Origin: Nitrosarchaeum sp.
GTDB lineage: Archaea > Thermoproteota > Nitrososphaeria > Nitrososphaerales > Nitrosopumilaceae
Assembly (NCBI GenBank): GCA_021414365.1
Contig: JAIOOR010000005.1
Span: 1 to 64,000 of the forward strand
Direction of reading: 5' to 3'
Length of the DNA: 64,000 nucleotides
Below are positions 9,219 through 62,904 of the stretch, piece after piece (the stretch's first letter is position 1; the number at the start of each line of letters is the position of its first letter). The notes beneath the pieces are model-generated. The model worked only from the letters and a program-made list of their open reading frames with translations. It made no database searches and had not been told where the DNA came from. The position numbers and the translations under genes were made by a program.

Positions 9219-10019
9219 ATGGCAAAGCGTTACCATTCCCCCATAACTTATCGATTAAAAGAAATTCCAACAAAATACATCAAAGTATGGAAAGATGCAC
9301 AGGCAAGAAAACTAGACAGGGAAGGAATTGCAGAACTTGCACGTTCCATCAAGACAGAGGGACTACAAAATCCGCCAATGGTCCAAAGAGAGTCAAAAAA
9401 TTCATATCTTTTGATGTCTGGTCAGAGAAGACTTGCGGCACTCAAGAGACTAGGTGCAAAAAAGATACCCGTATTGTTACTTACTCAAAGCACAAAATAC
9501 AATTTGGATGACGCAAAGGCAGCGTCAGTAATTGAGAATCTTCACCGAACCAAGATGAATGCAAAGGATATGACATCTGCTTGTGTCTTTTTGGCCAAAT
9601 CAGTGGGCAAAAGCAAGGCAGCTCAATCCCTTGGAATATCACAGCAAACCCTCAAAAAATATCTGGGATTTGCAGCAGTACCTGATAAATTAAAAGAATA
9701 CGTCCCAAAGATTTCTCGTGATGATGCAACCAAACTATATCAAATCATTCCAAATGTATCTCAGGCAGTACGAGTTGCAGAAAAGATCATTCCACTTGAT
9801 GCAAGGCTTCGCAAGCAATATCTACGGAATTTGGCAAAAAGCCCAAGATCATCTCATCTCAAGATACTCAAAAACGCAAAAACTGGATTGTTACAGAAAA
9901 AAGTTACACTAGATCTTAACAAGGGCAATGCAAGAAAACTACATATCCTAGCTGCAAAAAAGGATTTGGATGTAACAGATATGGCAGAGAAGATAGTGTC
10001 GGATTATTTGAAAAGATAA
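9219..10019 (+). CDS. parB: ParB/Spo0J-like partition protein (copy 1)
   Basis: 266 residues. The N-terminal ParB/Srx nuclease-like domain shows the family motifs GLQNPPMV and LLMSGQRRLAALKRLG (GxRRxxA box, about residues 50-80), followed by ENLHRTKMNAKD and a helix-turn-helix with KAAQSLGISQQTLKKYLG (about 128-146). ParB binds a centromere site and CTP in characterised relatives. Directly downstream lies an iteron array, a natural candidate target. A close paralogue is encoded at 33073-33879. Confidence 0.9.
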   Translation: MAKRYHSPITYRLKEIPTKYIKVWKDAQARKLDREGIAELARSIKTEGLQNPPMVQRESKNSYLLMSGQRRLAALKRLGAKKIPVLLLTQSTKYNLDDAKAASVIENLHRTKMNAKDMTSACVFLAKSVGKSKAAQSLGISQQTLKKYLGFAAVPDKLKEYVPKISRDDATKLYQIIPNVSQAVRVAEKIIPLDARLRKQYLRNLAKSPRSSHLKILKNAKTGLLQKKVTLDLNKGNARKLHILAAKKDLDVTDMAEKIVSDYLKR

Positions 10020-15164: not shown

Positions 15165-15445
15165 TGTATCATGTCTGCAAAAGTCACTGTTCTCTCACAT
15201 GACTTGAATTGTGCACATGTCTTTTGCAGCATCTCCACTAGTTGTGGAATCTGCTCTAACTGGATTGAGAATCCCTTGTTCCATACTATTTGAGAGTTTT
15301 CCGAGTTGACAAATGTTGTCGCAAGATACATCTGAATTTTTTTGCCGATCACATCGCTTCGTTGTCTTTGTATCACAAGTTTTGCGTCATTTGGAAGGTG
15401 ATTCAATTTCATCTCGTCGATTTTTTCAAATGTGTGTTCTGACAT
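15161..15445 (-). CDS. Hypothetical small protein of leader-C unit
   Basis: 94 residues, soluble alpha/beta, with a VIQRQRSDVIGKKIQMYLA strand region and a C-terminal helix containing two cysteines. Coupled to the ArdC gene by TAATG overlap and to the next gene by ATGA. Function unknown; association with ArdC suggests a role in DNA transfer or anti-restriction (inference from context). Confidence 0.6.
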   Translation of the reverse strand: MSEHTFEKIDEMKLNHLPNDAKLVIQRQRSDVIGKKIQMYLATTFVNSENSQIVWNKGFSIQLEQIPQLVEMLQKTCAQFKSCERTVTFADMIQ

Positions 15446-16254
15446 TAGTTGCTCACATTAATCACATCGGTTTGTTTTAGGCAAGTTTGTGCGTCTTGCA
15501 GTATGGCATTGATTATTTTTTGCACTCTTGCCAGTACTTTCATGCATGCCTGTCCTACCTTTTGTGGCGAGTCAGTATCGGCATAATTTGCAATGTATTG
15601 CCAGGTATAGTTTTGTACGTCGTACCCGTACATTTTTGCCAAAACACATGCTCCCAACTGGGCTACTGTCTCTTGCTGTGCATCCTGTCCTGGCTTTAAC
15701 GGGTGATTCAAGTTGTCATACCAGTGGACAAGCTCATGCAAAAATGTGTCAGGAGAGTCTGTGCTAATAGTCATGCTGCCAGATTTCACATCAATTGAAC
15801 CGTATTCGCCAAATGATGAATTTTTCCATCTTACTTGGATGCCATTTTTTTTGGCAAGATCAAAGAGAGGCGGTAAGACCTTTGGTTCGTATTCCTTTAA
15901 CGGCATGCCTTCTGTGTCCTCGTATCGAAATACGGGCATTGCCTTGAACCCAAATGTAATCATCTTTGATTCGTCGGTGTCTTGCTCTTTGATCTTTTTT
16001 TGCATCGGCACTAGGATGTGTATTGCCTTGCTTCCCTTTTTGACATTGCGATACACTTGTCTCCACTGGTTGTACCCTCTTGCATCTGCAGTGCCTGAAA
16101 ATATCATCAGCAACTGGTTTCCCAAAGACCAGGAAGATGACGGGATTTCTGGCGCCTTGATAAATGTCTTGGCACATATCTCAGGCAGTTTTTCTTGCGA
16201 GAATATACTGACTAGATTTTGCAGCAATTGCGCTGCTTGTTGCGTGTGAGTCAT
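15445..16254 (-). CDS. ardC: ArdC-like anti-restriction protein with zincin metallopeptidase domain
   Basis: 269 residues from ATG 16254, which follows the upstream stop (an alternative ATG at 16278 overlaps it). The N-terminal ArdC-type ssDNA-binding domain has the family landmarks SWSLGNQLLMIF, ADARGYNQWRQ and KKGSKAIHILVP. The C-terminal half carries HELVHW near residue 172, the HExxH zinc site of the linked peptidase domain. ArdC proteins protect incoming single-stranded plasmid DNA from host restriction during conjugation, which fits the conjugation genes elsewhere in the window. Confidence 0.88.
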   Translation of the reverse strand: MTHTQQAAQLLQNLVSIFSQEKLPEICAKTFIKAPEIPSSSWSLGNQLLMIFSGTADARGYNQWRQVYRNVKKGSKAIHILVPMQKKIKEQDTDESKMITFGFKAMPVFRYEDTEGMPLKEYEPKVLPPLFDLAKKNGIQVRWKNSSFGEYGSIDVKSGSMTISTDSPDTFLHELVHWYDNLNHPLKPGQDAQQETVAQLGACVLAKMYGYDVQNYTWQYIANYADTDSPQKVGQACMKVLARVQKIINAILQDAQTCLKQTDVINVSN

Positions 16255-16261
16255 TTCTGCA

Positions 16262-17815
16262 CTAGATGAGCATTGCAATTTTTGCTACATCATCGCATGA
16301 CATCTCTGAGACATCAGAAGATGACAGTCCTAGGTTTTGTACCATCTCTGCCTGTCTGGATTGGCTGATTGATTCCCAGTGTTTTGAGACCTGTGTCCTG
16401 ATTATTTCCTCAAAATCAGCAAGGCAATACTTTGAGTTTGCCTCATCGTACTCTGATTTTGCTTTTTCATACTCTGCAAAGAATTCTTTGAGGATTTGGC
16501 AGATGCCGTTTTTTGCACAGTATTTTTTTGTATCCTCTATTGACTTGAAGTGTCTCGGTACGATTTGGATGTTGTTGCCTGAGCAGTCAAATCTATTTCT
16601 CCATCCAGTGTAGTGGTATGGAAGTTTCAATACTGACTCGCTGTAATTATTCCCTCCAATGATGCAATTCCCTACAATTACAATCGAGTATTTGTTTGTA
16701 GGACGTCTGTTTTCTGCGACATACAACTGCAGTGACATGATACCATCAGAGTATTTTTCCAAAAACTCCAGATGCCCGTGATTTTTGATGGATTCAAAGC
16801 ACTTTGTATTTGGTGTCTTGCCTTTTCTTTTCAGATAGTATGTTATTCTTTCTGTTTTTTGAATTATTTTTTGCAGCTCACCTATTTCAGAATCTGTCTT
16901 TTTGTCTGTCTCGTCTGTATCGTCCTGAATTTTTCCAGTCTCTATGTGCATCTGATTTTCAAGATCTGATATTGTCTTGTGGTATCTTTCTCTTATTTCC
17001 GTTATTTTTTCTCTGTTTTGTCTTTCCAATGCATCTTGACTTTCTCTGAGATCTGCAATTGATTTTGTGTTTTTGTTGTATGCAGATATCATGTAATGCG
17101 CATCTGATTGATCAAGTGGCACTGATTCTTCATCATCAAGAGAAAATCCTTTTCCGTATCCCAAGAAATGATGACATAGCTGCATTGCCTCATGCCAGTT
17201 CTCCATTGTTCCATCAGAATGGATAGTTATGGCGTCTTTGAGATGGTGCTTTGCAATTACAAGACAAATAGTTACTGCCAGGTCGTACGGCTTGTATGCA
17301 GTCTTTGTACACTGGAAATATTTTCCAATTTTGTCTTCATCTGTCTTGTCTCTTGTGCCGTCAGAGTTTGTATAGAGCCTGTCCTCTTTTTGTGGTTCCA
17401 ACTCGTATGTGCTGCCATCGTATCTCGTCATGACGGTTTCCATTTTTTGCTCAAGTGAGAATGTCTCATGGGAGCAGTCGCCTCCACATACCCTGGATTC
17501 TAATTTAGCTCCTGCAAACCATTGTGATTTTGTGATATTTGCAAGTACTGTATCAGTTCCGTTTTTTAACACACCAGATGCTGATTCGCTTGGCCATGTG
17601 ATTCCAAGTTCTCTTTGAGTGTGTCCGCATTTGGCAAGCCCATTGAATATTATTTTTGTAGGGCTGATTGTCGGATAGTTCTGACCACTTCCGTCTGCAA
17701 GGACTACCCCAAGATGTTTTAGCGGTGTGATCATTTTCTTGAAATCTGCTGCAACATTTGCAAATGCTTTTGCATCAAATTTCTTTGAGACATAGTAATA
17801 GTGGGTGTATCCCAT
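16262..17815 (-). CDS. MGYTHY-type hypothetical protein with central coiled coil
   Basis: 517 residues. The N-terminus MGYTHYYYVSKKFD matches a family of phage and plasmid proteins known only by its MGYTHY opening. Residues about 265-345 are rich in E, K, Q and R with heptad-like spacing, a likely coiled coil. The N-terminal half has several Cys and His (CGGDCSHE). It is translationally coupled (TAATG) to a 19-aa upstream ORF behind leader C. Function unknown; its mobile-element setting is consistent. Confidence 0.75.
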   Translation of the reverse strand: MGYTHYYYVSKKFDAKAFANVAADFKKMITPLKHLGVVLADGSGQNYPTISPTKIIFNGLAKCGHTQRELGITWPSESASGVLKNGTDTVLANITKSQWFAGAKLESRVCGGDCSHETFSLEQKMETVMTRYDGSTYELEPQKEDRLYTNSDGTRDKTDEDKIGKYFQCTKTAYKPYDLAVTICLVIAKHHLKDAITIHSDGTMENWHEAMQLCHHFLGYGKGFSLDDEESVPLDQSDAHYMISAYNKNTKSIADLRESQDALERQNREKITEIRERYHKTISDLENQMHIETGKIQDDTDETDKKTDSEIGELQKIIQKTERITYYLKRKGKTPNTKCFESIKNHGHLEFLEKYSDGIMSLQLYVAENRRPTNKYSIVIVGNCIIGGNNYSESVLKLPYHYTGWRNRFDCSGNNIQIVPRHFKSIEDTKKYCAKNGICQILKEFFAEYEKAKSEYDEANSKYCLADFEEIIRTQVSKHWESISQSRQAEMVQNLGLSSSDVSEMSCDDVAKIAMLI

Positions 17816-20903: not shown

Positions 20904-21743
20904 ATGAATAAAAATTTAATCGGACTAGACATAGGGACGGGTTCAGTCAAAGTTGCAACATCCTCCGGCACATTTTCATTCCCTTCCATAATTGCAAGAG
21001 GGAAAAGTATCGACATTGAGGCAAAAGAGATTGTACTTGTAGGCAATGATGCCCTAAAAGCAGAGTATGTAAAATCAATGGCAATAAGAACGCCGGTGTA
21101 CAGGGGCGCCCCAACATCAATGGATGATTATTTAGATTTGATACGACACGCACTTGATCATATAATAAACTCCAAAGATGCCATCTCAGTCCATTACTCT
21201 GATCTTGTAATTATGGCAGGCATTCCATACAATGCAAAAGAACATGTGGGAAAAATTAAAGAAGCAGTCATTGAATCATTTGGACCCAAGTTCTTTGGCG
21301 TAATGTTTCAGGCAAAAGCCACACTTGACCACATGGCATTGCAAGACGGCATCGTTTGCCACATTGGTCACGGCACCACTGAGATAATGGCAGTATCGCA
21401 CGGAAAGATTGCATATGGACAGACATTAATGCACGGTGTCGGCGATATCACAAATGCGATATGCAGCTCAAAGACCCAGTATGTGGATAATGAGATATTT
21501 TTAAAAAATACCCCGGAACTTGCAAATAGCAGAAAGATACTGGCTGCCAACATATCAGACTCACTTGAAAAAGTCGTAATTGACTATCCGCACTTGAAGA
21601 TTGTTTTTGCAGGTGGCGGCGCATTGGTGCCAAGACTTGTATCGGAGATAAAAAACGGCATAATCAAGGATGTCATCATTGCAGAGAATCCAGTATTTTC
21701 AAATGCACTTGGGATGCTAAAAAGGGCAGAAAAATGTATCTGA
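20904..21743 (+). CDS. Actin-like ParM-type ATPase
   Basis: 279 residues with actin-superfamily signatures: phosphate 1 GLDIGTGSVK (7-16), phosphate 2 CHIGHGTTEIM (about 152), adenosine motif VFAGGGALVPRL (about 233). The length is short for ParM (about 320) but similar to archaeal and plasmid actin-like proteins such as Ta0583. Followed by an overlapping small gene, the parM-parR arrangement, with palindromes upstream. Plasmid segregation by polymerising filaments is the likely role. Confidence 0.85.
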   Translation: MNKNLIGLDIGTGSVKVATSSGTFSFPSIIARGKSIDIEAKEIVLVGNDALKAEYVKSMAIRTPVYRGAPTSMDDYLDLIRHALDHIINSKDAISVHYSDLVIMAGIPYNAKEHVGKIKEAVIESFGPKFFGVMFQAKATLDHMALQDGIVCHIGHGTTEIMAVSHGKIAYGQTLMHGVGDITNAICSSKTQYVDNEIFLKNTPELANSRKILAANISDSLEKVVIDYPHLKIVFAGGGALVPRLVSEIKNGIIKDVIIAENPVFSNALGMLKRAEKCI

Positions 21744-22028: not shown

Positions 22029-22427
22029 TCATTGTATGGTTACAACTTTTACCAGCGGCTTTTGCATTCCTTGTGAGTCTGTTGCCACAAATGTAATTAT
22101 TGCATCATCACCTGGCACTACGCCCAGGTCAGTTGCTTTGATTGATGAGAATATGTAGCCTGTATCATTTCTTGGATAGAGTGGAAATGATACAGGGCTT
22201 GCCAGGTTTGTACCTTGCATGTCTGCTGTGACAGATACAATATCAGTGTCCCCCGTATTGTAGATGGTGTATTGTATTATGACGTAACTGTCAACTATTA
22301 CGGCAGATACTTCGGCACTAAAATCCATATTTGTGACCTGCTGGCTGGAAAGAAAGATGGTAGATGCAATTGCAGCAACTATTCCGGTAAATAGGAATAT
22401 CTTGAGGTATTCTTGTGTGAGGATCAT
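22029..22427 (-). CDS. Pilin/ArlG-like exported protein
   Basis: 132 residues: N-terminal hydrophobic helix (about 9-27) without a cleavable-looking Ala-rich end, then a beta-sandwich (VIIQYTIYNTGDTDIVSV) like archaellum ArlF/ArlG and CARDB-type pilin domains. Overlaps the TBP-like gene by ATGA. Probably an accessory surface subunit for the element's pilus. Confidence 0.6.
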   Translation of the reverse strand: MILTQEYLKIFLFTGIVAAIASTIFLSSQQVTNMDFSAEVSAVIVDSYVIIQYTIYNTGDTDIVSVTADMQGTNLASPVSFPLYPRNDTGYIFSSIKATDLGVVPGDDAIITFVATDSQGMQKPLVKVVTIQ

Positions 22428-22933
22428 ATTTTTGGAGTCACGTATTTTTCTAGCATCTTTGCTATGGGGATTATCTCGTCGATTGTCTTTGAGCTTGCAG
22501 TGATTTTATCTGCAAACACCTGAAGACTCGCATTTGGGAATTGCAGGTGTGCCGAATTAAACCCGCGTATCATTTTTTTGAATTCCGGGAGTGTTTTGAT
22601 TTTTGCAATGTCTATTTTTCCGTCAAGCAAAATTTTAAAGACAATCACCGATGTCACCGGTTTTGATACTATGATTATGTCCATTCCTAATTTTCTTAGC
22701 TGTTTTATGAAGATATCAATTGATTCTATGGCCCAGTCTACGTATGAGGCACCCTTTGATGTTATTTTGCCAGAATCAAAAAGAGATATCTGGGCATTTT
22801 TGCCTAGTGGAACGCATATGCCAGGAAAATCATTTGGCCGGAATTCTGCAAGAAACATATTTTTGAGGATTTTGTTTTGATCAAATCCTGAGATCTTTGC
22901 ACTGACTACGACATTTGTTGTGATTATGTACAT
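22424..22933 (-). CDS. Divergent TATA-binding-protein-like protein
   Basis: 169 residues. Residues 1-85 follow a TBP direct repeat: TNVVVSAKISG, then AEFRPNDFPGICVPL with the DNA-intercalating FPG phenylalanine region (36-38), ISLFDSGKITSKGA (F52, SGK 54-56) and the C-terminal helix IDIFIKQLRKLG. A second, decayed repeat seems present after residue 88 but lacks FPG and SGK. Genomic archaeal TBPs are about 180-190 aa with two good repeats, so this is an unusual element-encoded paralogue. Could alter promoter choice for element genes (inference). Confidence 0.72.
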   Translation of the reverse strand: MYIITTNVVVSAKISGFDQNKILKNMFLAEFRPNDFPGICVPLGKNAQISLFDSGKITSKGASYVDWAIESIDIFIKQLRKLGMDIIIVSKPVTSVIVFKILLDGKIDIAKIKTLPEFKKMIRGFNSAHLQFPNASLQVFADKITASSKTIDEIIPIAKMLEKYVTPKI

Positions 22934-23313
22934 TTTTCCTCCTTGTATTTTGAGATTGAATGATTAGTTATCGCCATGCAAACATGGCCTGTTCCAATTA
23001 CATACGACATTATGGTATCACCTATTGCCAGAAAGGATACAATGTTGATGAGTATCCCTACAAGAAATATTACAAAAAACGACAGCTGGGGGCTGAATTT
23101 TCTTTGGAGTATGGCAAACAGGGGGTTTGTCTCTTTTGAGTGGCAATCTTTGATTTTGATGGTGGAATAATAATCGGCTAAAAACGAGACGACATAAAAC
23201 ACAATGGCAGGCAAAGCACCAAAGTCATTTAAAAGCGCGTTTATGATGATTCCAAGCAGCGTGGAAAAAATCGAAATTATTCCAACTAAGAAAAAATTTG
23301 GACGGGCCATCAC
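22924..23313 (-). CDS. Multi-pass membrane protein, DUF5658-like
   Basis: 129 residues with about four TM helices. The DYYSTIKIKDCHSKETNPLF segment (Asp near a helix end, then E-x-NP) resembles small archaeal DUF5658 proteins, of unknown function. Overlaps the start of the TBP-like gene by 10 bases, lies 1 bp from the upstream 90-aa gene. Confidence 0.6.
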   Translation of the reverse strand: MMARPNFFLVGIISIFSTLLGIIINALLNDFGALPAIVFYVVSFLADYYSTIKIKDCHSKETNPLFAILQRKFSPQLSFFVIFLVGILINIVSFLAIGDTIMSYVIGTGHVCMAITNHSISKYKEEKCT

Positions 23314-23314
23314 T

Positions 23315-23587
23315 TTATTTTGATACCCTTAGCGTGACGCCGATCATTATGCCACCTGCAATGATTGCAATGTATGCGGCCCATCGGATGTAAAAGATCA
23401 CCTCGCCAATAAAGTCTGTAAAAAAACTGCCAAAAATTGGTTTTGTATCCGGTGCATCTGCGGTGCCAGGTGCAAAATTTTCTGCGACTGCAATAGCTGC
23501 TGCAATCACAATTATCGCAAGGGCAAATACTCCGACTGGTCCGCGTATTGCTTCAGTTAGGTCTTGTTCGTTCTTTTTTGCAAGCAT
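23315..23587 (-). CDS. Small two-helix membrane protein, candidate VirB2/pilin-like subunit
   Basis: 90 residues: TM helix 1 (about 17-37) and TM helix 2 (about 65-85) with an acidic, proline-containing loop, the size and topology of VirB2-type conjugative pilins. No sequence signature proves this. First gene of a four-gene operon starting from a leaderless promoter. Confidence 0.5.
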   Translation of the reverse strand: MLAKKNEQDLTEAIRGPVGVFALAIIVIAAAIAVAENFAPGTADAPDTKPIFGSFFTDFIGEVIFYIRWAAYIAIIAGGIMIGVTLRVSK

Positions 23588-23647: not shown

Positions 23648-23989
23648 TTAATTTTCCCGAAGAATCTCCTCGTGAATGCGTCTTGCAGCCTCTATGTCCT
23701 TCTTTGTTCTTGGCTTTTTGTCCAGATATTGGATTTGTAAATGTCCGATTATTCGCCCTATGTTGTAATTGGCTTCCTCCAGCTGCGGTATTTTTTTTCT
23801 TCCAATATGACGTGAAATTTTGTGCTGAATTGGCTCTGTAAGATTGACAAGCAAAGTATGTGTGTCTTTATAGTCAAGTTTTGATAGCACTCTTGCCAGC
23901 TTTTTGTCAAGCGGATTGCAAGCAAGGCATGAGCCATCACCACATTTTGATTGGGTATTTTTTGATTTTTTGGATTCTTTGACTGTCAC
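23648..23989 (-). CDS. Hypothetical protein with N-terminal Cys cluster
   Basis: 113 residues. Lys/Ser-rich start, then CGDGSCLAC (C-x5-C-x2-C), then a helical basic domain (HKISRHIGRKKIPQLEEAN ... RRIHEEILREN). Could be a small DNA-binding accessory protein. No family recognised. Confidence 0.6.
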   Translation of the reverse strand: MTVKESKKSKNTQSKCGDGSCLACNPLDKKLARVLSKLDYKDTHTLLVNLTEPIQHKISRHIGRKKIPQLEEANYNIGRIIGHLQIQYLDKKPRTKKDIEAARRIHEEILREN

Positions 23990-26491: not shown

Positions 26492-28915
26492 TTACAATGA
26501 TGGTATCTTGGAGAGGAAAAAATTTCCCAGTCTTGACTTTATCATGTAACCTCTTCTCTGCAATTCTGCTTTGATCTCTTCTTTCTGGTAAATGTCGCAC
26601 TCTTGCCAAATATAAAAAAGCGCCTGCTCTGTCAAGTCGGCGTAATTATTTTTTTTCTGTATCTTTGTGGCAGATACAGTCTCTGAATTTGTTTCTGGCA
26701 ATACCACAACTGGCAGCAGCGTATGCGGCATGTCAGTCATTTGTGGGACTTGCAACTTTGTTTCTTCTCCATCCTGCTTTAGAATGGACCATGTTGTGTT
26801 TGCAGGGGTTGCATCCGGGTTTGTCCTGTAAATGTTGTGTGTTTTTTGCAAATGCTCCAGTCCGTCAAGTACTTCTTGCTGCTCAAAGCGCCACAATTCC
26901 TCAAAAATGTTTTTCTGTGTAGTGACACCTTTGCAGTCAATTAGTGTCTTTATTATTATTGATTCAATCTCTGAATATCTTTTGATTTGTGCAGAATCAC
27001 CAGTCAGATAGGCTTTGTCAATTATTTGTATGGAGTAATTGTTTTTTGCCACACCGTGTCTTTCCAGTTCTGCAATGATTCCGTCTTTGATTGATTCATT
27101 ATACACGATAAACCACACGTTGTGTCCTTTTTTTGCAGATTTTTCCCAGTTTTTGTATGCCTGCTCCCAGTGTTTGCCCGGCTCTGTTTCCACTTCTACG
27201 GCAATGACATTCTCTGACCATTCAGACGGATGATATCGTGTGTTCTGATATGCATCTGAAATTTTCTTTGGCGAGTGTATCAAAAGATCTGCTTTTTGCG
27301 CGGAATTTTTTCCAAGATCAGGCATGCAGTAATTTCCCATGTTTGTCTGCACGTCCATTACCATAAATATGGTAGACAGATGCAAATCCCCGCCTGCACG
27401 CCGACCGGCTGCTGCCTTTGAGAAAATCCGGTCAATGGCAGTCTTGGTTATGACATATCTTGACTCAAATGTATCATCGCCATCATCAGAGATTGTGTCT
27501 TTTTTTGCAACAAAAGCGTTTGCTGCAATCAGAGTATCATGCAAGGCAGAAGATATCATCCTGGGATGAGATGCATATCTTTTTTCAATGTAGGATGTGA
27601 TCTCTTGCTTTGTCATGTCCCTGTTTTGTACCCTCAAAAGATTCAGTATTCCAAATTCAAGCGGTGTGAGTATTACGTCTGCATCGCCTCCTTTTTGCGT
27701 ATAGTATTTGTCAAGGGATACATAGATGCCAAGATTATTCACACTTGCCTGCGCTGCAGTCTCTGACCTGTCAATAACTTGCACATGGCGTGTCTTTGCA
27801 ACGGCCCTAACTGGTTTGTCCCCTGCGCTGTAAAAAGAGAAATGGTGAAATGATAATTGTTGCTGCTGCTCAGGCTTTATTGGCAGGACTGATTTTAAAT
27901 GTGCAGCAGTGACTGCGTCGCATCTAAAACACGCCACAGATCTGCACAGAGTCATTATCTCATCTGCAAGGTCCCTATCTAGTGCCGATGCAGACTGGGT
28001 GGCAATTGTGGCTTTAATGCCGTACTTTCTCACGGTGTTTAATAGCTCGCGAATCATCGTGGCTGAAAACATTTGTACCTCGTCAAGATAAAGATTAAAC
28101 GTGTCGTATTTGCCGTCACTGTTTTTTGCCCTTTTTTTGTACTGGGTGTAAAAAAGATGCAAAAATATATTTCCCAAAAACATCACCATGTCATTTGGCA
28201 GTCCTCCGAAATCCAAAACCACGTACATTGCATCATTTATTATTTTTTCAAATGTGACTGACGACTTTTCAGTGTTAAACATTGCATCCATCTCAGGAAT
28301 TGTCAGCATTTTGTTTAGCTTGTTAAAGATCACGCCCCCTGCCTCTTTTGGATACTGGTCATCGTACACGTTTACAAAAAAATCCTTTGCCTGCCTGTTT
28401 GTTATTTGCGGAACAAATGACTGCCTGAATTCCTTGTCTGTCAAAAGTTTGAGCATCGTCCCCAAAGTGTTTGACTGTGTCCCAATGACTGACAGTGCGC
28501 CATTTCTTGCACAGGTCTCAACTCGTGCACCCCATGAATCTGCAAATGCGGCGGCAAGCGATTCGGTAAAATTTAATGCAATCATTCCAGCATCATGCGG
28601 ATCTTTTATCTCAAGAGGATTGAATCTGAGAGTTTTTTCATACTTTCTAATGGAGCCAAGATTGACATAGACTAGCTTGTCATACTGGTCAGGCGGAATC
28701 ATCGAGAGTATCTCCCCTGAGAGCTCTGAGTGGTTTTCGGCAAGCAGGAATCCTCTTTTATTTTTGATATCCTGCATTATCAGTAATCGGAGTATGCTTG
28801 ATTTTCCAGAACCTATCTCGCCTAAGACCAGCATGTTTTGGCGCGTGGTGTTTTGCATTGCAATTACCTTCTCATCATCGAGGTATCCAATTAGCGAGTA
28901 ATCAGCAGGATTCAT
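26492..28915 (-). CDS. TraG/VirD4-like conjugative coupling ATPase with C-terminal nuclease-like domain
   Basis: 807 residues. Walker A GEIGSGKSS (32-40) and Walker B LYLDEVQMF (about 277), followed by IKATIATQSASAL, mark the T4SS coupling/HerA-like ATPase family, here without N-terminal TM helices. After a linker, residues about 440-500 look like a winged helix, and about 540-600 contain DLLIHSP ... AVEVETEPGKHWEQ, a D ... ExE arrangement reminiscent of PD-(D/E)xK folds. That addition could process DNA or be structural. Overlaps the VirB4-like gene by ATGA. Confidence 0.8.
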   Translation of the reverse strand: MNPADYSLIGYLDDEKVIAMQNTTRQNMLVLGEIGSGKSSILRLLIMQDIKNKRGFLLAENHSELSGEILSMIPPDQYDKLVYVNLGSIRKYEKTLRFNPLEIKDPHDAGMIALNFTESLAAAFADSWGARVETCARNGALSVIGTQSNTLGTMLKLLTDKEFRQSFVPQITNRQAKDFFVNVYDDQYPKEAGGVIFNKLNKMLTIPEMDAMFNTEKSSVTFEKIINDAMYVVLDFGGLPNDMVMFLGNIFLHLFYTQYKKRAKNSDGKYDTFNLYLDEVQMFSATMIRELLNTVRKYGIKATIATQSASALDRDLADEIMTLCRSVACFRCDAVTAAHLKSVLPIKPEQQQQLSFHHFSFYSAGDKPVRAVAKTRHVQVIDRSETAAQASVNNLGIYVSLDKYYTQKGGDADVILTPLEFGILNLLRVQNRDMTKQEITSYIEKRYASHPRMISSALHDTLIAANAFVAKKDTISDDGDDTFESRYVITKTAIDRIFSKAAAGRRAGGDLHLSTIFMVMDVQTNMGNYCMPDLGKNSAQKADLLIHSPKKISDAYQNTRYHPSEWSENVIAVEVETEPGKHWEQAYKNWEKSAKKGHNVWFIVYNESIKDGIIAELERHGVAKNNYSIQIIDKAYLTGDSAQIKRYSEIESIIIKTLIDCKGVTTQKNIFEELWRFEQQEVLDGLEHLQKTHNIYRTNPDATPANTTWSILKQDGEETKLQVPQMTDMPHTLLPVVVLPETNSETVSATKIQKKNNYADLTEQALFYIWQECDIYQKEEIKAELQRRGYMIKSRLGNFFLSKIPSL

Positions 28916-30786
28916 CTGGGGCGAAATAATTCAAGCTGCTCTTTGTCAGGCAAAATGTTTACTGGCACCATGTGATTGCCGTATTTTATCAGTGCCTGTC
29001 CTATTGCAAGTTTCATCAAAAAAGAGACTGCAAAATCAGACAGTACGAAATGCTCTTTTAATGCCGATACCGTAGCTTCGCTTTGTCGCAGAAATATTAC
29101 AGTGTCGCTGTTTACAAGCACGTTTTTGGCAGCGACATTTCCTGTCATGTCTTCGATGTTCTGAGTCGCCATCATCAGATTGATGTTGTATTTTCTGCCA
29201 CGCCTTGACAGGTTTTGTATATAGTTTCCAAGCGATTGGTGTTGGAGCAGCATCCACACTTCGTCAAGCATTATCATCTTTGGGATTATCTTTGGCATTA
29301 GCAGGGCTTTTCCCATCGCGTAAGACAGTGCTATCTGTGTGATTAGCCTGTGCACCATGCCTCCGGCACTGCCGATGTTTTTTAGCGAGAGTATTATCTT
29401 ATTTGATGACGGCGGCTGTCCCTCAAAGAAATCAGAGTATGGAGGACTGCTCAGCATTTCAAAATATTGCAACATGTCAAAATATTTAGAATATCCAGGC
29501 CCATCAAAAGAGGGCGGCTGCAGGTCTTTTAGTATCTGGTAGAATTTTTTAAAACTTCTCTGAGATATCTCCATTTTTGCAAGAACTGCTGCTGCCTTGT
29601 TTGCGTGCAGTCTGCTTGCATCGTCAATGTTTAGTGCGTTGCACAATGTCTCAGATGCTGCAAATGTGTCTGGCACCATTTTAAAGAGGTCCAGTCCCAT
29701 CTTTTTTCCAAAGGAATAGTCAATGTATGTAAAACCCATGTTCTGGCCCAGTGCCACATACTCGTTTTCAGGATCAACTCCGAATATGAAACTCTGAGGA
29801 TACATCTTTTCAAAACTTTGAATTATCATCATTGCAAGCGTTGTCTTTCCAGAGCCGGATGTTGCAGCCAGTACCGTGTTTCTGTTCATTCTGTTGTTGA
29901 TGTTCCACTGGACGGGATTTCCAGTAATCATGTTTTCACCTAACAGTATGCCGCCTTCCTCATAGATCTCAGATGTGGAAAATGGAATCAGTGCCGCAAA
30001 TGCACTTGTAGATACAAGTATTTTTTGTCCTACAATTCCCTGCAAAAGTTTTGCCTGGACGTGTTTGGCAGTCTGGATGCCAGGAGTGTTTTTTGTAGTT
30101 TGCAAAAATTCCTGCTCTCTTTTTTTTAACTCGTCAGGATTTTTTGCAAGAATCGACATCATTATTTTTATAAAGAATAATTTTTCAGTCCTTTTGTTTA
30201 ACACCAGTTCTTTTATTATTCCAATGTTTGCAGTTGCATCCATTTTTGATGCACTAGATAGGGTCATCTGGGCTGTTCTGTGGTTTGCAATTACTGGTCT
30301 TGTTTTTTCCTCAGGTACTGGCTGCACATACACCTTTACTACATCTGATGATTGGTACAAGTCATAGAGCCATCCGGGGCGCAGGTCATCAAGCAGGCTT
30401 GTCAGGGTGAATGTTTTGCAACACATGCCGTCTTGCAAGGTGACATAATTTGGATACTCGTCTGATATTTGCCAGTTTCGTGTGTCTGTTTTTTCGTATC
30501 GTATTCCTGCAATATTTAGCACGGTTTGGGGGTGCGAGTCTGCAGTGTTTAGTATTACTTTGTCAAAGATACAGTTTCTCACAGTCTTGTAAAATAACAG
30601 ATCCTCATAGTCTCGCACCATCTCAAAATAGAACGGGCCCTCAAAGCCGTCAAAGAGTCTCAGAAATTGCGATATCAGAATGTCTCTTTCAGAGACTCCG
30701 GCTATCCGTGTGGAATCTGAGGAAAATTCCAGGTTAAATGGGTGCAGCAAAAAAGATTGGACTGGCAAGTTTGCTATTTGTTTCAT
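28912..30786 (-). CDS. virB4: VirB4/TraC-like conjugation ATPase
   Basis: 624 residues from ATG 30786 (the frame extends to 30873, but a TATA box 25 bp upstream of 30786 indicates a leaderless start there). Walker A ATSGSGKTTLAMM (about 308), followed by FGVDPENEYV, Walker B MIMLDEVWMLL (about 508) and MMATQNIEDM, the VirB4 signature order. Provides energy for type IV secretion-type DNA transfer and pilus assembly. Forms an operon with the coupling ATPase. Confidence 0.88.
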   Translation of the reverse strand: MKQIANLPVQSFLLHPFNLEFSSDSTRIAGVSERDILISQFLRLFDGFEGPFYFEMVRDYEDLLFYKTVRNCIFDKVILNTADSHPQTVLNIAGIRYEKTDTRNWQISDEYPNYVTLQDGMCCKTFTLTSLLDDLRPGWLYDLYQSSDVVKVYVQPVPEEKTRPVIANHRTAQMTLSSASKMDATANIGIIKELVLNKRTEKLFFIKIMMSILAKNPDELKKREQEFLQTTKNTPGIQTAKHVQAKLLQGIVGQKILVSTSAFAALIPFSTSEIYEEGGILLGENMITGNPVQWNINNRMNRNTVLAATSGSGKTTLAMMIIQSFEKMYPQSFIFGVDPENEYVALGQNMGFTYIDYSFGKKMGLDLFKMVPDTFAASETLCNALNIDDASRLHANKAAAVLAKMEISQRSFKKFYQILKDLQPPSFDGPGYSKYFDMLQYFEMLSSPPYSDFFEGQPPSSNKIILSLKNIGSAGGMVHRLITQIALSYAMGKALLMPKIIPKMIMLDEVWMLLQHQSLGNYIQNLSRRGRKYNINLMMATQNIEDMTGNVAAKNVLVNSDTVIFLRQSEATVSALKEHFVLSDFAVSFLMKLAIGQALIKYGNHMVPVNILPDKEQLELFRPR

Positions 30787-30806
30787 AATATGACAAAAGA
30801 ATTTTG

Positions 30807-30814
30807 TATTTAAG
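30807..30814 (-). promoter_or_regulatory. Promoter of the virB4 operon
   Basis: Sense CTTAAATACAAAATTCTTTTGT, of which the TATA core is CTTAAATA, about 25 bp before ATG 30786. The same segment with one change precedes the VirB3-like gene at 44342. Confidence 0.65.
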
Positions 30815-33072: not shown

Positions 33073-33879
33073 ACGGCAAAGCGCTACAATTCACCAATAT
33101 CTTATCGTCTAAGAGAGATTCCAGTAAAGCAGATCAAGATCTGGAAGGATGCACAGGCAAGAAAACTAGACCGTGAAGGTATTGCAGAACTTGCACGTTC
33201 CATCAAAAATGAAGGCCTTCAAAATCCTCCAATGGTCCAAAAGGAATCAAAAAACTCGTATTTATTAATGTCAGGCCAACGAAGGCTTGCAGCATTAAAA
33301 CGACTAGGTGCAAAAAAGATACCGGTATTATTGCTAACTAATTCCACAAAGTATGATCTCGATGATGCAAAGGCAGCATCAGTAGTTGAGAATCTTCACC
33401 GAAATAAAATGAACACAAAGGACATGACTGCAGCATGTGTCTTTTTATCCGAATCAGTAGGAAAAAACAAAGCTGCACAATCACTTGGAATCTCACAGCA
33501 AACACTCAAGAAATATCTTGGATTTGCAGCAGTGCCGGATAAATTAAAACAATATGTCCCAAAGGAATTATCTCGTGATGACGTCATTAGATTGTGTCAA
33601 ACTATTCCAAATATACCAAAAGCTGTAAAAATTGCAGGAAAAATTATCCCACTTGATCAAAAACTCCGTAAACGATATCTATACCATCTAGCAAAAAGCC
33701 CAAAGTCATCTCATCTCAAACTGCTCAAAAAGGCAAAGGCAGGATTGCTCCAGCAAAAAATTAATCTTGAGTTGAGTAAGGGTAATGCAGGAAAATTGCG
33801 TAGTTTGGCTGTTCGAAATGATTTGGAAGTAACAGAAATGGCAGCAAAGATAATGTCCGACTATTTGAAGAGAAAATAA
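33073..33879 (+). CDS. parB: ParB-like partition protein (copy 2) with ACG at the expected start
   Basis: Alignable with copy 1 along its full length: T/MAKRYNSPISYRLREIP ..., GLQNPPMV, SGQRRLAALKRLG, KAAQSLGISQQTLKKYLG. The codon matching copy 1's initiator is ACG (33073-33075) in an otherwise conserved context (ACGGCAAAGCG against ATGGCAAAGCG). If only ATG, GTG or TTG work, the first start is ATG 33232 and the protein loses the N-terminal 53 residues. Either an ACG start, or a silenced paralogue. Confidence 0.8.
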   Translation, partial: TAKRYNSPISYRLREIPVKQIKIWKDAQARKLDREGIAELARSIKNEGLQNPPMVQKESKNSYLLMSGQRRLAALKRLGAKKIPVLLLTNSTKYDLDDAKAASVVENLHRNKMNTKDMTAACVFLSESVGKNKAAQSLGISQQTLKKYLGFAAVPDKLKQYVPKELSRDDVIRLCQTIPNIPKAVKIAGKIIPLDQKLRKRYLYHLAKSPKSSHLKLLKKAKAGLLQQKINLELSKGNAGKLRSLAVRNDLEVTEMAAKIMSDYLKRK

Positions 33880-42018: not shown

Positions 42019-43725
42019 TTATTTTTCAATTTTGTCTTTAGGTGGATTACTTGTCTGTGGAGTTGCATCAGTGCTACTACCATGTTCGGGTATGGTTGTC
42101 TGCTTTGTATTTGATGTCTTTGATGTATTTGTAACCAGAGTTCCAGATGTAGTCGATGTCTGAGAATGCTGCCCCGCCTCTTCACCTGTCTGCAGTTGCT
42201 CACCAGCAATGAAACCTTTGTGAAAAGCATCGCCGGACTCGGAAGTATCAACACCGCTGCTTGGAATTCCGGCACCTGGCATAATTTTTCCAGAGCCCAT
42301 CAGATCATTTCTAAACGCATTTTTTGCACCAGACATACCGCCTGAGCTCATTCCGCCAGCTAATGCCTTTAGTCCTGCCCCTGTGCCAAGCGCCTTTAGG
42401 GTTCCAAGCGCTCCTGTACTGCCACCTGCAGCAAGTCCTTTCATTGCAGATGCACCGCCACCTGCCAGCCCTTGAACAGCACTTGCGGCACCCATCACAC
42501 CCGTCATCGTTCCAGTCATTACCATCTTGCCTACCATTGAGGATACACTGGAAAGCATAGGCACAAACATCACGGGTGTCATTACAGCAAGGGACAGAGT
42601 TGCAATGGCATACACCCAGAAAAGATACCTGTCTGAGAGAAGTGAATTCAGGTCTTCTTTTCCCTCTACTGTGGTGACGTCGACTTCCTGCTCAAGCAAA
42701 CTTGTGCTTCCGGCAGTAATTATCAAGGCGGTAAAAAACGGGACAAACAAAAGCGGTACAAACACACCTAAAAGAACTCCTGCAAGTTTGTCTATTCCCA
42801 ATACGGGTATGCTTCGCAGTGCCAGTAAAATTGGCAGTGAAATAACTATCACGTCAGTCAGCAGATACCTCATAGAGCCGACAAGGGCGGACATTGTTGC
42901 AAGGAAAAACAGCATGGCAGTCTTTGTAATTCCTTCAAACATCACGCCGAATATTCCCTGAGCTACAGTTGTGGCATATGCGTTTATCTGATCAAAGACA
43001 TTCCACCACTGGCCTCCTTCGGATTTAAAATCGACATTCACACTTGCGCCAAAAATTGCCTTTGCAAAAAGATAGTTTGATCGAAGTGCAGGATCACAAA
43101 TGCTTGAATCATCTGTGACTATTCCGCCAACGCTGGACCTCTCCTTCATAAGAGTCTGGTATTTTACCAGCTCTGCCACACGCGGGTCACTTGAGACTAT
43201 ACACGGATTGTCCTTATCAAAAGAGTATAGCGGGTTTAGCATCCACACAGATGACATCTCTGATACATCAGAGATAGGATCCCAGATGTATGGAAATATC
43301 ATTATTATGATTATCCCGACAAATGCGGATTTTATCATATTTTTTAATGTCTCGCTTGTGACAAGCTGGGCCTGCTTTAGTGCAAGCAATATGCCAAACA
43401 AAAAGAAAACAAAAATAAAAAAATAAAAAGAAATGTCGCGAAATATTGAAAACAGCAGATATGAAAAGTTTCCACTCTCCACGCCATTTACCACATGGAA
43501 TTCAAAGTTTGGAACGCTGGTAACTATATCTACAAATCCTGCTGCAATCTCTTTGATTAGCAGCATCATGACGCCAGAAAAAGCAAGAACTGACGCAATA
43601 GTAGTTACAATTAATATTCCGGCATCAGCACCCGGAATCAATCCATCAAGGGACGTGTTTAGTTTTTTATGAACATGTGAAATTACTCCTCTTGCAAATA
43701 GTGATGTCATGTATGGTGCAGTCAT
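42019..43725 (-). CDS. VirB6-like polytopic membrane protein
   Basis: 568 residues. About six or seven TM helices (for example 55-75, 88-112, 140-155, 275-295, 300-330, 360-385), a conserved-looking cysteine-containing loop, then a Gly/Ala/Met-rich stretch (440-510) and a polar Ser/Thr-rich tail. This design is that of VirB6/TrbL inner-membrane channel proteins. Overlaps the VirB3-like gene by ATGA. Confidence 0.72.
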   Translation of the reverse strand: MTAPYMTSLFARGVISHVHKKLNTSLDGLIPGADAGILIVTTIASVLAFSGVMMLLIKEIAAGFVDIVTSVPNFEFHVVNGVESGNFSYLLFSIFRDISFYFFIFVFFLFGILLALKQAQLVTSETLKNMIKSAFVGIIIIMIFPYIWDPISDVSEMSSVWMLNPLYSFDKDNPCIVSSDPRVAELVKYQTLMKERSSVGGIVTDDSSICDPALRSNYLFAKAIFGASVNVDFKSEGGQWWNVFDQINAYATTVAQGIFGVMFEGITKTAMLFFLATMSALVGSMRYLLTDVIVISLPILLALRSIPVLGIDKLAGVLLGVFVPLLFVPFFTALIITAGSTSLLEQEVDVTTVEGKEDLNSLLSDRYLFWVYAIATLSLAVMTPVMFVPMLSSVSSMVGKMVMTGTMTGVMGAASAVQGLAGGGASAMKGLAAGGSTGALGTLKALGTGAGLKALAGGMSSGGMSGAKNAFRNDLMGSGKIMPGAGIPSSGVDTSESGDAFHKGFIAGEQLQTGEEAGQHSQTSTTSGTLVTNTSKTSNTKQTTIPEHGSSTDATPQTSNPPKDKIEK

Positions 43726-44342: not shown

Positions 44343-44362
44343 ATTACAACAAAAGGATTTTG

Positions 44363-44370
44363 TATTTAAG
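44363..44370 (-). promoter_or_regulatory. Promoter of the VirB3/VirB6-like operon
   Basis: Sense CTTAAATACAAAATCCTTTTGT; the TATA core CTTAAATA lies about 25 bp before ATG 44342. Differs by one base from the promoter of the virB4 operon. Confidence 0.65.
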
Positions 44371-45710: not shown

Positions 45711-45746
45711 TAAAATTTTGCAATGTTATTTTCTAAATCGCGAGAA

Positions 45747-47516: not shown

Positions 47517-47675
47517 TCAACTACTTTATCTTTTTAATCCTTAAAAGTCTATTTGATAGTGGTTAAATAAACTTCAATGGCATACAATAAACAATTTCCA
47601 AAAAATGGTTGAGAATAACATCTAAATTTTAAATCAATATGATTGCCATTATATTATTGAATTACTAATGCTAAT

Positions 47676-48533: not shown

Positions 48534-48568
48534 TCAGTTGTCTTGATAAAAAAGAAAAAAGATTACTC

Positions 48569-49138: not shown

Positions 49139-49265
49139 TGTATATTTTATGTGTCCTAACTAATTAAAGACAATAGTTTCTATCAAGTTACTTGGTATGG
49201 TTATTCTAACCTACTAAGTAAGTAATTACTACCATATTTAAATAATTAACAGTGTATACTATATT

Positions 49266-58985: not shown

Positions 58986-59294
58986 TCAAAGGGCTGAATT
59001 CACAAGATTGGATATCACATCAAAGAAAAAATCCCAGCCAACCAAAATGACAAATGTGATAACAAGACTGAGTCCAAGTGGCAAGGTGGCAAAAAATGTG
59101 GCGTATGTGACACGGGAAATGACTAGGCCTGAGCAGACAGACATTATCACCAAAGCAGGTTTTAGCGCATCAAGTAACTGACCAAAATCAGGTTTGATCA
59201 AAAAGCTGGCGTATTTAGGATCAAAAGACAGCACGCTTGTGCTATCTGGCATACCGACTGTAAAAGACATCAATATCGAAGCCATCAAAGACAA
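58986..59294 (-). CDS. Membrane protein, likely second half of the T2SF (TadC-like) component
   Basis: 102 residues; three TM segments (1-14, 46-60, 67-92). The frame overlaps the end of the 502-aa T2SF gene by 53 bases; reading through this overlap in the other phase continues a membrane helix (RLMMFIL to SLMASILMSF). Either a separate subunit with TTG start, or the 3' end of a gene split by frameshift. Confidence 0.5.
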   Translation of the reverse strand: MSLMASILMSFTVGMPDSTSVLSFDPKYASFLIKPDFGQLLDALKPALVIMSVCSGLVISRVTYATFFATLPLGLSLVITFVILVGWDFFFDVISNLVNSAL

Positions 59295-60750
59295 TCTGCA
59301 AGATAAACATCATAAGGCGCAATCTTTTTGAAGACAGGTTCGGATCGTAAAACAGATCCTTTTTTGTGTACGTTATTTCATAGAGCCTTGCACGCACATC
59401 ATCTAATATCTCTGAGAACATCATGTATTTTTTGCCAATCTCAGGGGATTTGAGTAATTTTTTAATTGAGACTATAAAGTTTGAATCAACTTTGCGCCTC
59501 TCAATTAAATCACGAATGAAGATAGGAAATCCGTCTGTCTTTGAGCGCCACGACTTAAGTTGCCTTTGGACGGACACGCCATTAATTATCGCCATTACCA
59601 GGATGCCAAGAGATACAGAAGCAAGCCAGTCATGAGTTGCTGCAAACCATGGTATGGCAAAAGCCAGTCCGAAGAGGGAATGTCTGTTGTATTTCAAAGA
59701 CACGTCAGAGTGTCTTGAATTTGTAAAAAACACATACAATGCATACATGACTGGAATCAAAAATAGCACATATGCGATATACTGCACAGAGTGCGGATCA
59801 GTCTGCATAAACATCATTGTAAGCATCATTATTGGTGCCATGATCATGGCCATTGCACCGTACATAAAGACAGACGTGACTTTGCCAATGCTTTTCTCGT
59901 CTTGGGTGATTATTTTTTCAAATTCGACATCGGCAGTCTTTGAGACAAAACTATCCAGTCCGGGAGTGTTTGATTTTGATATTGCATAGTATGAAAACAA
60001 AAAAGACTGGAATGTCTTATGAGAGTGGTTAAGGGCCAGACTGTTAATTGCAATTGATTCAGAATAGCCATCCAAAGACACCCATTTTTTCAGGGTGTTT
60101 GCATCACGCTCGATTGAGTGCAGTATGTTTTTGCCCAGCAATTTCGCCATTGACAAATACAGGCCAAGGCCAGCCGCTGTGGATATCTGCAGGTATGCCA
60201 AAAAGTAGGCAAATTCATCATCATACGATGATGCCATATCTGATGACATTATTTTGTTTGAGATTCCAGGATACAAACGGACAAACAATGGAAACAAAAA
60301 TGTCAGTAAAAATAATAAATTAAAAAAGACAAAGACGCCAATCAGAGATATTATTATTGATGCTGCAAAAGAAACTGCAAAGACAAAAACAATATTTTTT
60401 GATACATGCAAAGGAGTCACAAGGGACCCAGTCTTTATCGCGCCAGACAGCGAGGTTCTCTGTATGCTCTTATTCATGTTTGAAAAAAATCTGTATTTCA
60501 CAAGATGCCCGTACAAAATATCTTGGTATGATGCCCGTGATTTTTCAAGCAACAGTGTCGGCGGATTTATGTTTTTGTACAACATCTGTTTTAATTTTTT
60601 AAAAATCACACGCAACTGGGCAAAAAACAGCAGAGGTATGACACATGCAAGCAATAAAATCAAAACCAAAAGATGTCCAGAGGCGCCCAAAACAAAAGCT
60701 ACAAACAACAGCATTGCAGAGAATGCAAATGCAAAGAATCTATTTGGCAT
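59242..60750 (-). CDS. Type II/IV secretion T2SF membrane protein (TadC/ArlJ-like)
   Basis: 502 residues. Several TM pairs and the T2SF pattern YFLAYLQISTAAGLGLYLSMAKLLG around 190-215; a second such pattern is weaker. Inner-membrane platform for pilus assembly, working with the ATPase encoded immediately upstream (11-base overlap). Archaeal ArlJ-type proteins are 450-600 aa. Confidence 0.75.
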   Translation of the reverse strand: MPNRFFAFAFSAMLLFVAFVLGASGHLLVLILLLACVIPLLFFAQLRVIFKKLKQMLYKNINPPTLLLEKSRASYQDILYGHLVKYRFFSNMNKSIQRTSLSGAIKTGSLVTPLHVSKNIVFVFAVSFAASIIISLIGVFVFFNLLFLLTFLFPLFVRLYPGISNKIMSSDMASSYDDEFAYFLAYLQISTAAGLGLYLSMAKLLGKNILHSIERDANTLKKWVSLDGYSESIAINSLALNHSHKTFQSFLFSYYAISKSNTPGLDSFVSKTADVEFEKIITQDEKSIGKVTSVFMYGAMAMIMAPIMMLTMMFMQTDPHSVQYIAYVLFLIPVMYALYVFFTNSRHSDVSLKYNRHSLFGLAFAIPWFAATHDWLASVSLGILVMAIINGVSVQRQLKSWRSKTDGFPIFIRDLIERRKVDSNFIVSIKKLLKSPEIGKKYMMFSEILDDVRARLYEITYTKKDLFYDPNLSSKRLRLMMFILQIVFDGFDIDVFYSRYAR

Positions 60751-62266
60751 AATACCTGGATAGAATTCCCATTACCTTTTTTGGCGTGTATGCTTTTTGT
60801 CTCACACATTCATCAAGCAGACTTGCCCTGTGTTTTAAATCAGAGGCCAAGTCAGATGATGCGTCAAATCGGGTGAGGTAGTCAAGTTTTTTGCTTTTTG
60901 AGATCATCTCAGTAATTGTAGCGCCAAGAAAAGAGTCAGATAGTGCGTCATAGCTGCATAAATTGACAAGGCTTGCATGCACACCATCGTAGCACACCTC
61001 GTCAAAGGACACACATTTTCTCTTGTGTCTTTTGTCTTTGTCTATTATTGTTGCAACTGTGAGAATAAACCACAGATGTGAAAAAGATGCAGGATGCACG
61101 TCATATTCGGAAATTATTTTACGCATTGCGCCTTCTGCAGAAAATGCATGAAATGATGAAAGCGATGAATGTCCCGTCGACATGACATCAAATAATTTTT
61201 TTGTTGATTTTCCTCTCACCTCACCGACTGAAATCATCTTTGGTCTGTGACGCAGCACTGCGTTTAGCAGCTCCTGGAATTTGTCATGGTATTGCGGAGA
61301 TGTTATGGGGGCATCAATAATTAACGGTGTCCAGTCAAACTGAGGTATCTGCAGTTCCGCAGTATCCTCAATGGTCATGATTTTCGATGATCTATGCAAT
61401 AATGGAAACAGCGTGTTTAGCAGAGATGATTTTCCGGCACCTGTGGCGCCAACCACCAGACCCGTTCCACGAAAATCAAGCATCTTCCAGATTACAGAAA
61501 CAACGCTTGTGGGAATCACGTTTTTCTCGATCATCTCAGTAATGGTAAATGGCTTGTCAGATTTTATGCGAATTGAAAATGCGGCTGATTTTGGAGATAT
61601 TATCTCATCAGATATTATGGCCACGCGGAATTTGTCCTCAAGCTGAAAATCAAGCATCGGATCCGATGAAGATATGTGCTTTCCGCCAAGTCGGGCAATT
61701 CTTTCCAAGAACACGTTTAGGTGTTCTGAATTACGAAAACGCACATTGGAGCGAAGCACTTCTGATTCAAGATAATCCCGGTGTATCACGCCGACTGACG
61801 TCGGGTCAGAGCAGGTAATGTCCTCGATGTGTGCGGAATCCTTCATCATGACATCAAGTATTTCGTAACCAAAGATATCGCGTTTTGCAAAATACCGGAC
61901 TGTCTTGTAATTGTCAGTCAAGACATTTGAGAGGCCAAGGTCAGCTGCTGCCGCAGTAATTGAGATCATCAGATGCTCTTCAGTCAACGAGTTTACATCT
62001 TCTTTTAGGAGCTGCTTGTACTGCATTATTTTGTCATATGCAAGTTTGTCTGATTCGTTTTTGAATTGCGGCTCAAATACAAGATACTGGAAATCATCTG
62101 TGATGGTAACTATTGCATCGCCCACTGCATACCTGTCTCGGTATAGGTCTGGCATGGCGTGAAAAGTTTGCACACAAAACATTGGCGTATCTGAGAATTT
62201 CGCAGCAGGTGTTGCATCTTGTTTTGCGACAAACTTTGCTTTTTTTACAATATCAAAGATGTTCAC
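60740..62266 (-). CDS. Type II/IV secretion ATPase (TadA/ArlI/PilT-like)
   Basis: 508 residues from GTG 62266, which overlaps the peptidase stop as GTGA (the frame extends to 62290). Walker A VVGATGAGKSSLLN (about 275), Asp box TIEDTAELQIP, Walker B MISVGEVRG (about 343), and HAFSAEGAMRKI. Energises pilus extension. Pairs with the T2SF and the peptidase genes in one operon. Confidence 0.92.
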   Translation of the reverse strand: MNIFDIVKKAKFVAKQDATPAAKFSDTPMFCVQTFHAMPDLYRDRYAVGDAIVTITDDFQYLVFEPQFKNESDKLAYDKIMQYKQLLKEDVNSLTEEHLMISITAAAADLGLSNVLTDNYKTVRYFAKRDIFGYEILDVMMKDSAHIEDITCSDPTSVGVIHRDYLESEVLRSNVRFRNSEHLNVFLERIARLGGKHISSSDPMLDFQLEDKFRVAIISDEIISPKSAAFSIRIKSDKPFTITEMIEKNVIPTSVVSVIWKMLDFRGTGLVVGATGAGKSSLLNTLFPLLHRSSKIMTIEDTAELQIPQFDWTPLIIDAPITSPQYHDKFQELLNAVLRHRPKMISVGEVRGKSTKKLFDVMSTGHSSLSSFHAFSAEGAMRKIISEYDVHPASFSHLWFILTVATIIDKDKRHKRKCVSFDEVCYDGVHASLVNLCSYDALSDSFLGATITEMISKSKKLDYLTRFDASSDLASDLKHRASLLDECVRQKAYTPKKVMGILSRYYAK

Positions 62267-62904
62267 TTTAAGGCAAGTCCTACAAACCATAAAAACGCAA
62301 ACGCCATAGTAGAGTATACAAACTGCGGATGTGCAGAAAACACGTATTTTGTATCAGGTGTCAGTTTGTTCTCACGCTTTATGGATAACCGCATCACACC
62401 CATTTCATCAAATCTTTCTGCAGACAAGATGAATCGGTCACGGGGTCTTTTGCATCGTGCCAAAAAGAACCACCACATTTTTCTGAGTCGGTGATTTTTC
62501 AGGTAAGGCATGTCAGAAAATAGTGTGTCTCCCTGTGCCAAATCCGAAAAATTGTAAGCAAGATTGGAAATGATGATGGCCCAGTTTTGGACAAACAATG
62601 TAGTTAACAGCAGTGGAATTCCGGCAGGTATTGGGCCTATGTGGGGTATCGCAAAAGACAAGATAAGAATGCCGAGCAGATCTGCCTTGCCAAATAATTT
62701 GCACAAAAACGCCACACCTACAAAGACTGCAGATGTTGCAAACAATAGCAGATCAGATAAAATATTATCTGAATCAAATGCAATTTTATGAATAATTACA
62801 AAAATAGCAAGTGCGACAAACCAGTATGCTTTGATTTGTCTTTTCTTTACATCAAGTATTGCAAAAAATACAAATGCTGCAAAAAGTGCAAATTCAATAT
62901 ACAT
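62263..62904 (-). CDS. Type IV prepilin peptidase (FlaK/TadV-like, A24)
   Basis: 213 residues, about six TM helices. Catalytic aspartates in ILDVKKRQI (Asp18) and GKADLLGILIL (Asp75), the D ... GxxD pattern of A24 aspartyl prepilin peptidases. The C-terminal third is basic and cytosolic. Would process the pilin at 56692-57120. Confidence 0.8.
   Translation of the reverse strand: MYIEFALFAAFVFFAILDVKKRQIKAYWFVALAIFVIIHKIAFDSDNILSDLLLFATSAVFVGVAFLCKLFGKADLLGILILSFAIPHIGPIPAGIPLLLTTLFVQNWAIIISNLAYNFSDLAQGDTLFSDMPYLKNHRLRKMWWFFLARCKRPRDRFILSAERFDEMGVMRLSIKRENKLTPDTKYVFSAHPQFVYSTMAFAFLWFVGLALK

Follow-up and report, generated by a model that had tools for sequence, protein, structure and literature searches.

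What can a TATA-binding protein (TBP) do in an archaeal mobile element when half of its sequence no longer looks like a TBP? This question is raised by a divergent TBP gene for 169 amino acids with an ATG start (22424..22933, minus strand (-)) in the 64,000-nucleotide stretch of DNA analysed here, in the following called the window. The N-lobe of the gene product is TBP-like. It matched the Pfam TBP model PF00352 with 1.2e-6 (28.7 bits, cut-off 22.9) over residues 6-82, which covers the N-lobe only. Ten NCBIfam TBP models matched as well (best 5.6e-10), and in the PDB sequence set nothing other than TBPs was hit (five chains, best 1.8e-9). All of these matches rest on the N-lobe, some continuing into the C-lobe as far as its first strand and helix. 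Codon statistics of the two halves of the reading frame (0.142 and 0.159, with the five alternative frames between -0.15 and 0.03) are like those of the neighbouring genes. Since the frame is intact and has this coding bias, a pseudogene or a chance reading frame is disfavoured. Judged from these comparisons, 22424-22933 (-) is a real, coding TBP homologue. In the TBP phylogeny it forms an extremely long, saturated branch that leaves the parent lineage unresolved, with an identity to canonical archaeal TBPs of about 27% at best. No close homologue was found when viral and genome contigs were scanned with strict patterns, or in a phage collection.

A preliminary description of the locus had called the protein half-degenerate, which is correct and stronger than was claimed there. 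Both AEFRPNDFPG and LFDSGKI of the TBP repeat are present in the N-lobe, while their C-lobe counterparts are altered, with FNS in place of FPG and ADK in place of SGK. A profile built exclusively from canonical ammonia-oxidizer TBPs gave 35.7 bits for the N-half and 2.4 bits for the C-half; in global alignments compared with shuffled sequences, the z values were 10.9 and 2.6, respectively, and approximately 0 past residue ~117. Canonical TBPs possess two intercalating phenylalanines per lobe, a central asparagine pair in the saddle and an acidic C-terminal stirrup (EPEQF), which contacts TFB/TFIIB. In the protein described here, Asn7, Val9, Phe36, Pro37, Phe52 and Lys56 of the N-lobe are kept. 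The first asparagine of the central pair (N69 and N159 in yeast) is conserved as N7, while the equivalent of N159 is V96. Of the intercalating phenylalanines, the N-lobe pair F36 and F52 is secure; the second pair would correspond to F125 and F140, which lie in a region of chance-level similarity. The stirrup EPEQF is changed to KMIRGF (E-x-E to KKMIRG), and no E-x-E is present, whatever register is chosen. Acidic residues of TBP are critical for the contact to TFIIB (PMC12529657). The protein would represent a naturally occurring TBP that has given up the TFB contact and retained one DNA-binding lobe.

The fold was modelled with AlphaFold2. Without an alignment no usable fold was obtained (pLDDT 33), whereas an alignment of 32 canonical TBPs led to a full two-lobe saddle (pLDDT 90, pTM 0.79), for which all 44 significant PDB matches in Foldseek were TBPs (TM approximately 0.86). 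The saddle by which the preliminary description proposed to recognize a TBP was thus seen, but only with canonical TBPs as alignment. Because the alignment supplied the fold, the saddle indicates compatibility and is not independent proof for the C-lobe, which past residue 117 may have been imposed on the model.

The host does not depend on this gene as its only TBP, a case that had been considered in advance as a refutation. Its genome (1.875 Mb, 26 contigs) harbours five canonical TBP genes scoring 94-105 bits per repeat, compared to about 28 bits for the protein described here, which is therefore an extra TBP; a role as the main TBP of the host was rejected for the same reason. Adjacent genes for a canonical TBP and a TFB are found in several ammonia-oxidizing archaea, here at L207 (C9:72.5-73.6 kb) and elsewhere at L225, L227, L231, L234, L239, L240 and L252. 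These adjoining genes likely encode specialised pairs.

The assignment of the gene to a mobile element was borne out by its surroundings, in which VirB4, VirD4, VirB6, FlaI, TadC, ArdC and integrase-like genes are located. The transfer genes encode a VirD4/TraG-like coupling ATPase (26492..28915 (-), TraG-D_C 5.4e-5), a VirB4-like ATPase (28912..30786 (-), P-loop_TraG 3.6e-14) and a VirB6-like membrane protein (42019..43725 (-)), homologues of which are encoded at VirB4 loci in further genomes (down to 2e-31). At higher coordinates of the contig, a TadC/UpsF-like membrane protein (59242..60750 (-), UpsF 3.3e-20), a FlaI/VirB11-type secretion ATPase (60740..62290 (-), FlaI 5.6e-61) and a probable prepilin peptidase (62263..62904 (-)) are encoded; we infer the name of the latter, homologues of which lie beside TadC/FlaI in other elements. 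A ParB-like protein (9219..10019 (+), ParB_N 2.1e-12) is encoded towards the left side of the element, followed by an ArdC-like anti-restriction protein (15445..16278 (-), ArdcN 5e-5), a type typical of conjugative elements, and an actin/MreB-like protein (20904..21743 (+)) occurring in many related elements. With its VirB4, VirD4, VirB6 and FlaI/TadC-type genes, the locus fits a thaumarchaeal integrative-conjugative element (ICE). A tyrosine-recombinase-like reading frame (contig 74,422-75,696) is located 10 kb beyond the window and scored 23.0 bits, below the cut-off of 27.1. Neither clear att repeats nor a tRNA were found in a search for the element ends, and VirB4 matches were absent from the 17 other searched genomes of the same genus. 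The closest element (G147) has a VirB4 with 73% identity; the G147 contigs stop before the TBP operon.

Several further genes of the window are worth recording. The ParB-like gene at 9219-10019 has a closely similar counterpart at 33232-33879, apparently shortened at the N-terminus. Host-like genes (two Kef-type antiporters, a glyoxalase-like and a pirin-like gene, assigned by eye) are situated between two blocks of transfer genes (44544-50180) and could be either cargo or the sign of two elements side by side. A large protein of 1250 amino acids with an ATPase-like motif (33924-37676) and an AAA/STAND-like ATPase of 416 amino acids (24491-25741) are possible defence genes within the element.

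The operon with pilin-like and small membrane protein genes, in which the TBP gene had been placed, was confirmed by overlaps on both sides (10 bp upstream, 4 bp downstream). Its first gene encodes a VirB2/TrbC-like small protein of 90 amino acids (23315..23587 (-); TrbC 0.07, a weak match) and is preceded by an ordinary box, CTTTATATCC, approximately 30-21 nt before the ATG. The next gene product, a small membrane protein of the transfer apparatus (129 amino acids, 22924..23313 (-)), has weak homologues (E 1e-3 to 7e-3) encoded between the pilin and FlaI genes of other elements; the stop of this gene overlaps the ATG of the TBP gene by the 10 bp mentioned. Downstream, a pilin-like protein of 132 amino acids without Pfam match (22029..22427 (-)) is translationally coupled to the TBP via a 4-bp ATGA overlap. 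A small protein of 113 amino acids is encoded at 23648..23989 (-) and is 84% identical over 94 residues to a protein of G224.

A divergent, reduced TFB of 222 amino acids is encoded 3.9 kb beyond the window (contig C26 67,853-68,518; L071:3853-4518, -). It contains a Zn ribbon (1.6e-5) and one recognisable cyclin region and is related to TFB-like genes of other elements (phmmer 2e-9 to 1e-5). The 341-aa gene that follows it forms with it a gene pair recurring in several other elements. The TFB gene is 45 kb away from the TBP gene and not part of the same operon. An altered TBP and an altered TFB in one element suggest, without proving it, that ICEs bring their own factors for the start of transcription.

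To what extent other elements encode such TBPs was assessed by scanning the neighbourhood of VirB4 in the 42 genomes where VirB4 was matched. Divergent TBPs were detected in about three of roughly 30 elements scanned (the one described here, G230 and G006) and are therefore not essential for such elements. The G230 protein, encoded among transfer genes, is nearly intact (160 bits), with both lobes recognisable and the acidic stirrup kept. The G006 protein, also encoded among transfer genes, scored 26.6 bits and has lost the FPG of the N-lobe and kept that of the C-lobe; a TFB-like gene is present in the same element. Judged by these sequences, element-borne TBPs are recurrent but sporadic and have diverged differently. 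A TBP near VirB4 is unsurprising on its own, because there are several host TBPs per genome; ownership by the element is argued for by strong divergence together with a position among transfer genes. A canonical TBP near VirB4 in G154, located at a contig end, was not counted, as it may be a host gene. The different places of degeneration argue against a common half-TBP design, and action as a dimeric half-TBP, proposed in the preliminary description, is unsupported, given the full two-lobe length of the protein and the TBPs of G006 and G230, which are degenerate elsewhere or hardly at all.

In a search of 15 genomes with a TBP model, canonical repeats scored 82-106 bits. Low scores were obtained for the G006 element copy, a second G006 TBP, a G222 TBP, a frameshifted G222 copy and a fragment at a contig start. 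The second G006 TBP is encoded near a ParB-like gene at 1.21 Mb (L343:1-300 (-) with L342:19752-20000), the G222 TBP beside restriction-modification genes at 1.44 Mb (L345:49-603, -). In both, CGY replaces the FPG of the N-lobe, and CGY-type TBPs are possibly a family of their own. As far as sequence comparison tells, divergent TBPs are rare, yet not confined to transfer-gene clusters.

Conserved promoters of the transfer operons had been suggested as targets of the TBP. The motif CTTAAATACAAAAT is located upstream of the VirB4-VirD4 operon (30801..30814 (-)), where it is preceded by a BRE-like run of C, and as an exact match upstream of the operon of a 206-aa gene and VirB6 (44357..44370 (-)). 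Because the motif lies between the two possible starts of VirB4, ATG 30786 is likelier than TTG 30873. This 14-mer has two exact copies in the 1.875-Mb genome, both at transfer operons. No excess was observed at up to three mismatches (27 in the window versus 26.4 expected) and no clear excess at one mismatch (11 matches in all versus 8 in the control). Directly before the ATG, both operons have AAAAATCCCC(CA)CTTAAATACAAAATyCTTTTGT in common, and TTTTCCCTTTAATACAAAA is found at the same place before VirB4 of the related G147 element. The sharing of the motif by two operons and the G147 VirB4 is thus upheld, while binding of the TBP to these promoters is a candidate interaction.

With roughly even credence, we take the TBP to be a fast-evolved paralogue owned by the ICE and acting as an element-specific promoter factor, most likely with the element TFB. 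It would be made together with parts of the transfer apparatus and would contact the minor groove of A/T-rich promoter DNA, mainly via the N-lobe (Asn7, Val9, Phe36, Phe52). At the shared BRE/TATA promoters, TBP and the element's own TFB would then switch on the transfer genes. Recruitment of a host TFB in the normal way is improbable, because the acidic stirrup is gone. Activation with the element TFB is preferred, since the lost host-TFB contact and the altered TFB resemble co-evolved partners; against a promoter factor stands the resemblance of the transfer promoters to boxes which the host TBP could read too, as do the 45-kb separation of the TBP and TFB genes, the unrecognisable C-lobe past residue 117 and the occurrence of divergent TBPs away from T4SS genes. 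It is doubtful, though conceivable, that degenerate TBP and reduced TFB form a complete private promoter-recognition set that guides the polymerase of the host to a BRE/TATA variant present at the element's transfer operons only. If true, this would be the archaeal counterpart to a mobile element with its own sigma factor.

Competitive repression is the main rival and the closest alternative to activation, albeit an unlikely one. The TBP would sit on TATA boxes, either those of its own element (autorepression) or those of the host, without recruiting TFB, and initiation would be blocked until its release. Retention of the DNA-contact residues of the N-lobe alongside the change of the TFB-contacting stirrup is in line with such a competitor, as is its production with an operon on which feedback could act. 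However, the affinity may be low, as the Asn159 equivalent is lost and the C-lobe degenerate, and archaeal TBP-DNA complexes are short-lived, some requiring TFB for bending (PMC4041446). It is improbable that the protein has departed from transcription and serves the transfer apparatus as a DNA-bending or structural accessory, e.g. in DNA processing at transfer. The gene does lie between membrane-protein and pilin-like genes of a transfer operon, and no relaxase was found in such elements (PMC6563490), but the promoter-binding signature residues of the N-lobe are retained and the element TFB points to transcription. Least probable is that a host TBP was captured, lost its function and is now decaying, as could be read from the long branch, the single copy and the eroded C-lobe, but not from the intact frame, the equal coding bias of both halves, the tight operon coupling on both sides and the presence of TBPs in further elements.

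It has long been noted that archaeal elements can encode TFIIBs, and to our knowledge there is no functional test of them. Extra TBP genes on extrachromosomal replicons are found in haloarchaea (Halobacterium pNRC plasmids), for which we know of no transfer-operon context. Unlike the element described here, the pNRC plasmids are typed as non-mobilizable (PLSDB). Canonical archaeal TBPs (1MP9, 2Z8U and the five host copies) share the N-lobe motifs and, in the alignment-guided model, the saddle with the element TBP, which differs in being encoded by a mobile element and in having lost the acidic stirrup, the counterpart of Asn159 and, in the C-lobe, FPG and SGK. With thaumarchaeal ICEs (PMC6563490; PMC5797428) the element has VirB4, VirD4, VirB6, FlaI/PilT, a prepilin peptidase, pilins, a ParB-like protein and a divergent TFIIB in common, and it is near their reported median size of 64 kb. 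Every integrative-conjugative element described by Krupovic et al. 2019 encodes a TFIIB homologue (PMC6563490). The element adds a TBP; the terms 'TBP' and 'TATA' are absent from PMC6563490 and PMC5797428, and no literature report of an element-borne TBP was found for this group, in which element-borne TFBs are known. A homologue of a general factor in a pilus or secretion operon is also represented by the single-cyclin TFIIB homologues (arCOG05559) in archaeal T4P operons (PMC4858521), which differ in being TFIIB, not TBP, and in belonging to Thermoproteales. The pattern of kept and lost residues is paralleled by KSHV ORF24, a viral TBP mimic with the phenylalanines kept, the N-lobe better conserved and the TFIIB-contact acids lost (PMC12529657). 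The parallel is an analogy and does not imply close kinship; ORF24 differs as a multi-domain herpesvirus protein which binds RNA polymerase II. By this analogy, a protein with such a residue pattern can function as a stand-in for TBP that is specific to a virus. With a strongly altered TBP, an equally altered TFB and a recognisable transfer promoter, redirection of host RNA polymerase by an element becomes concretely testable.
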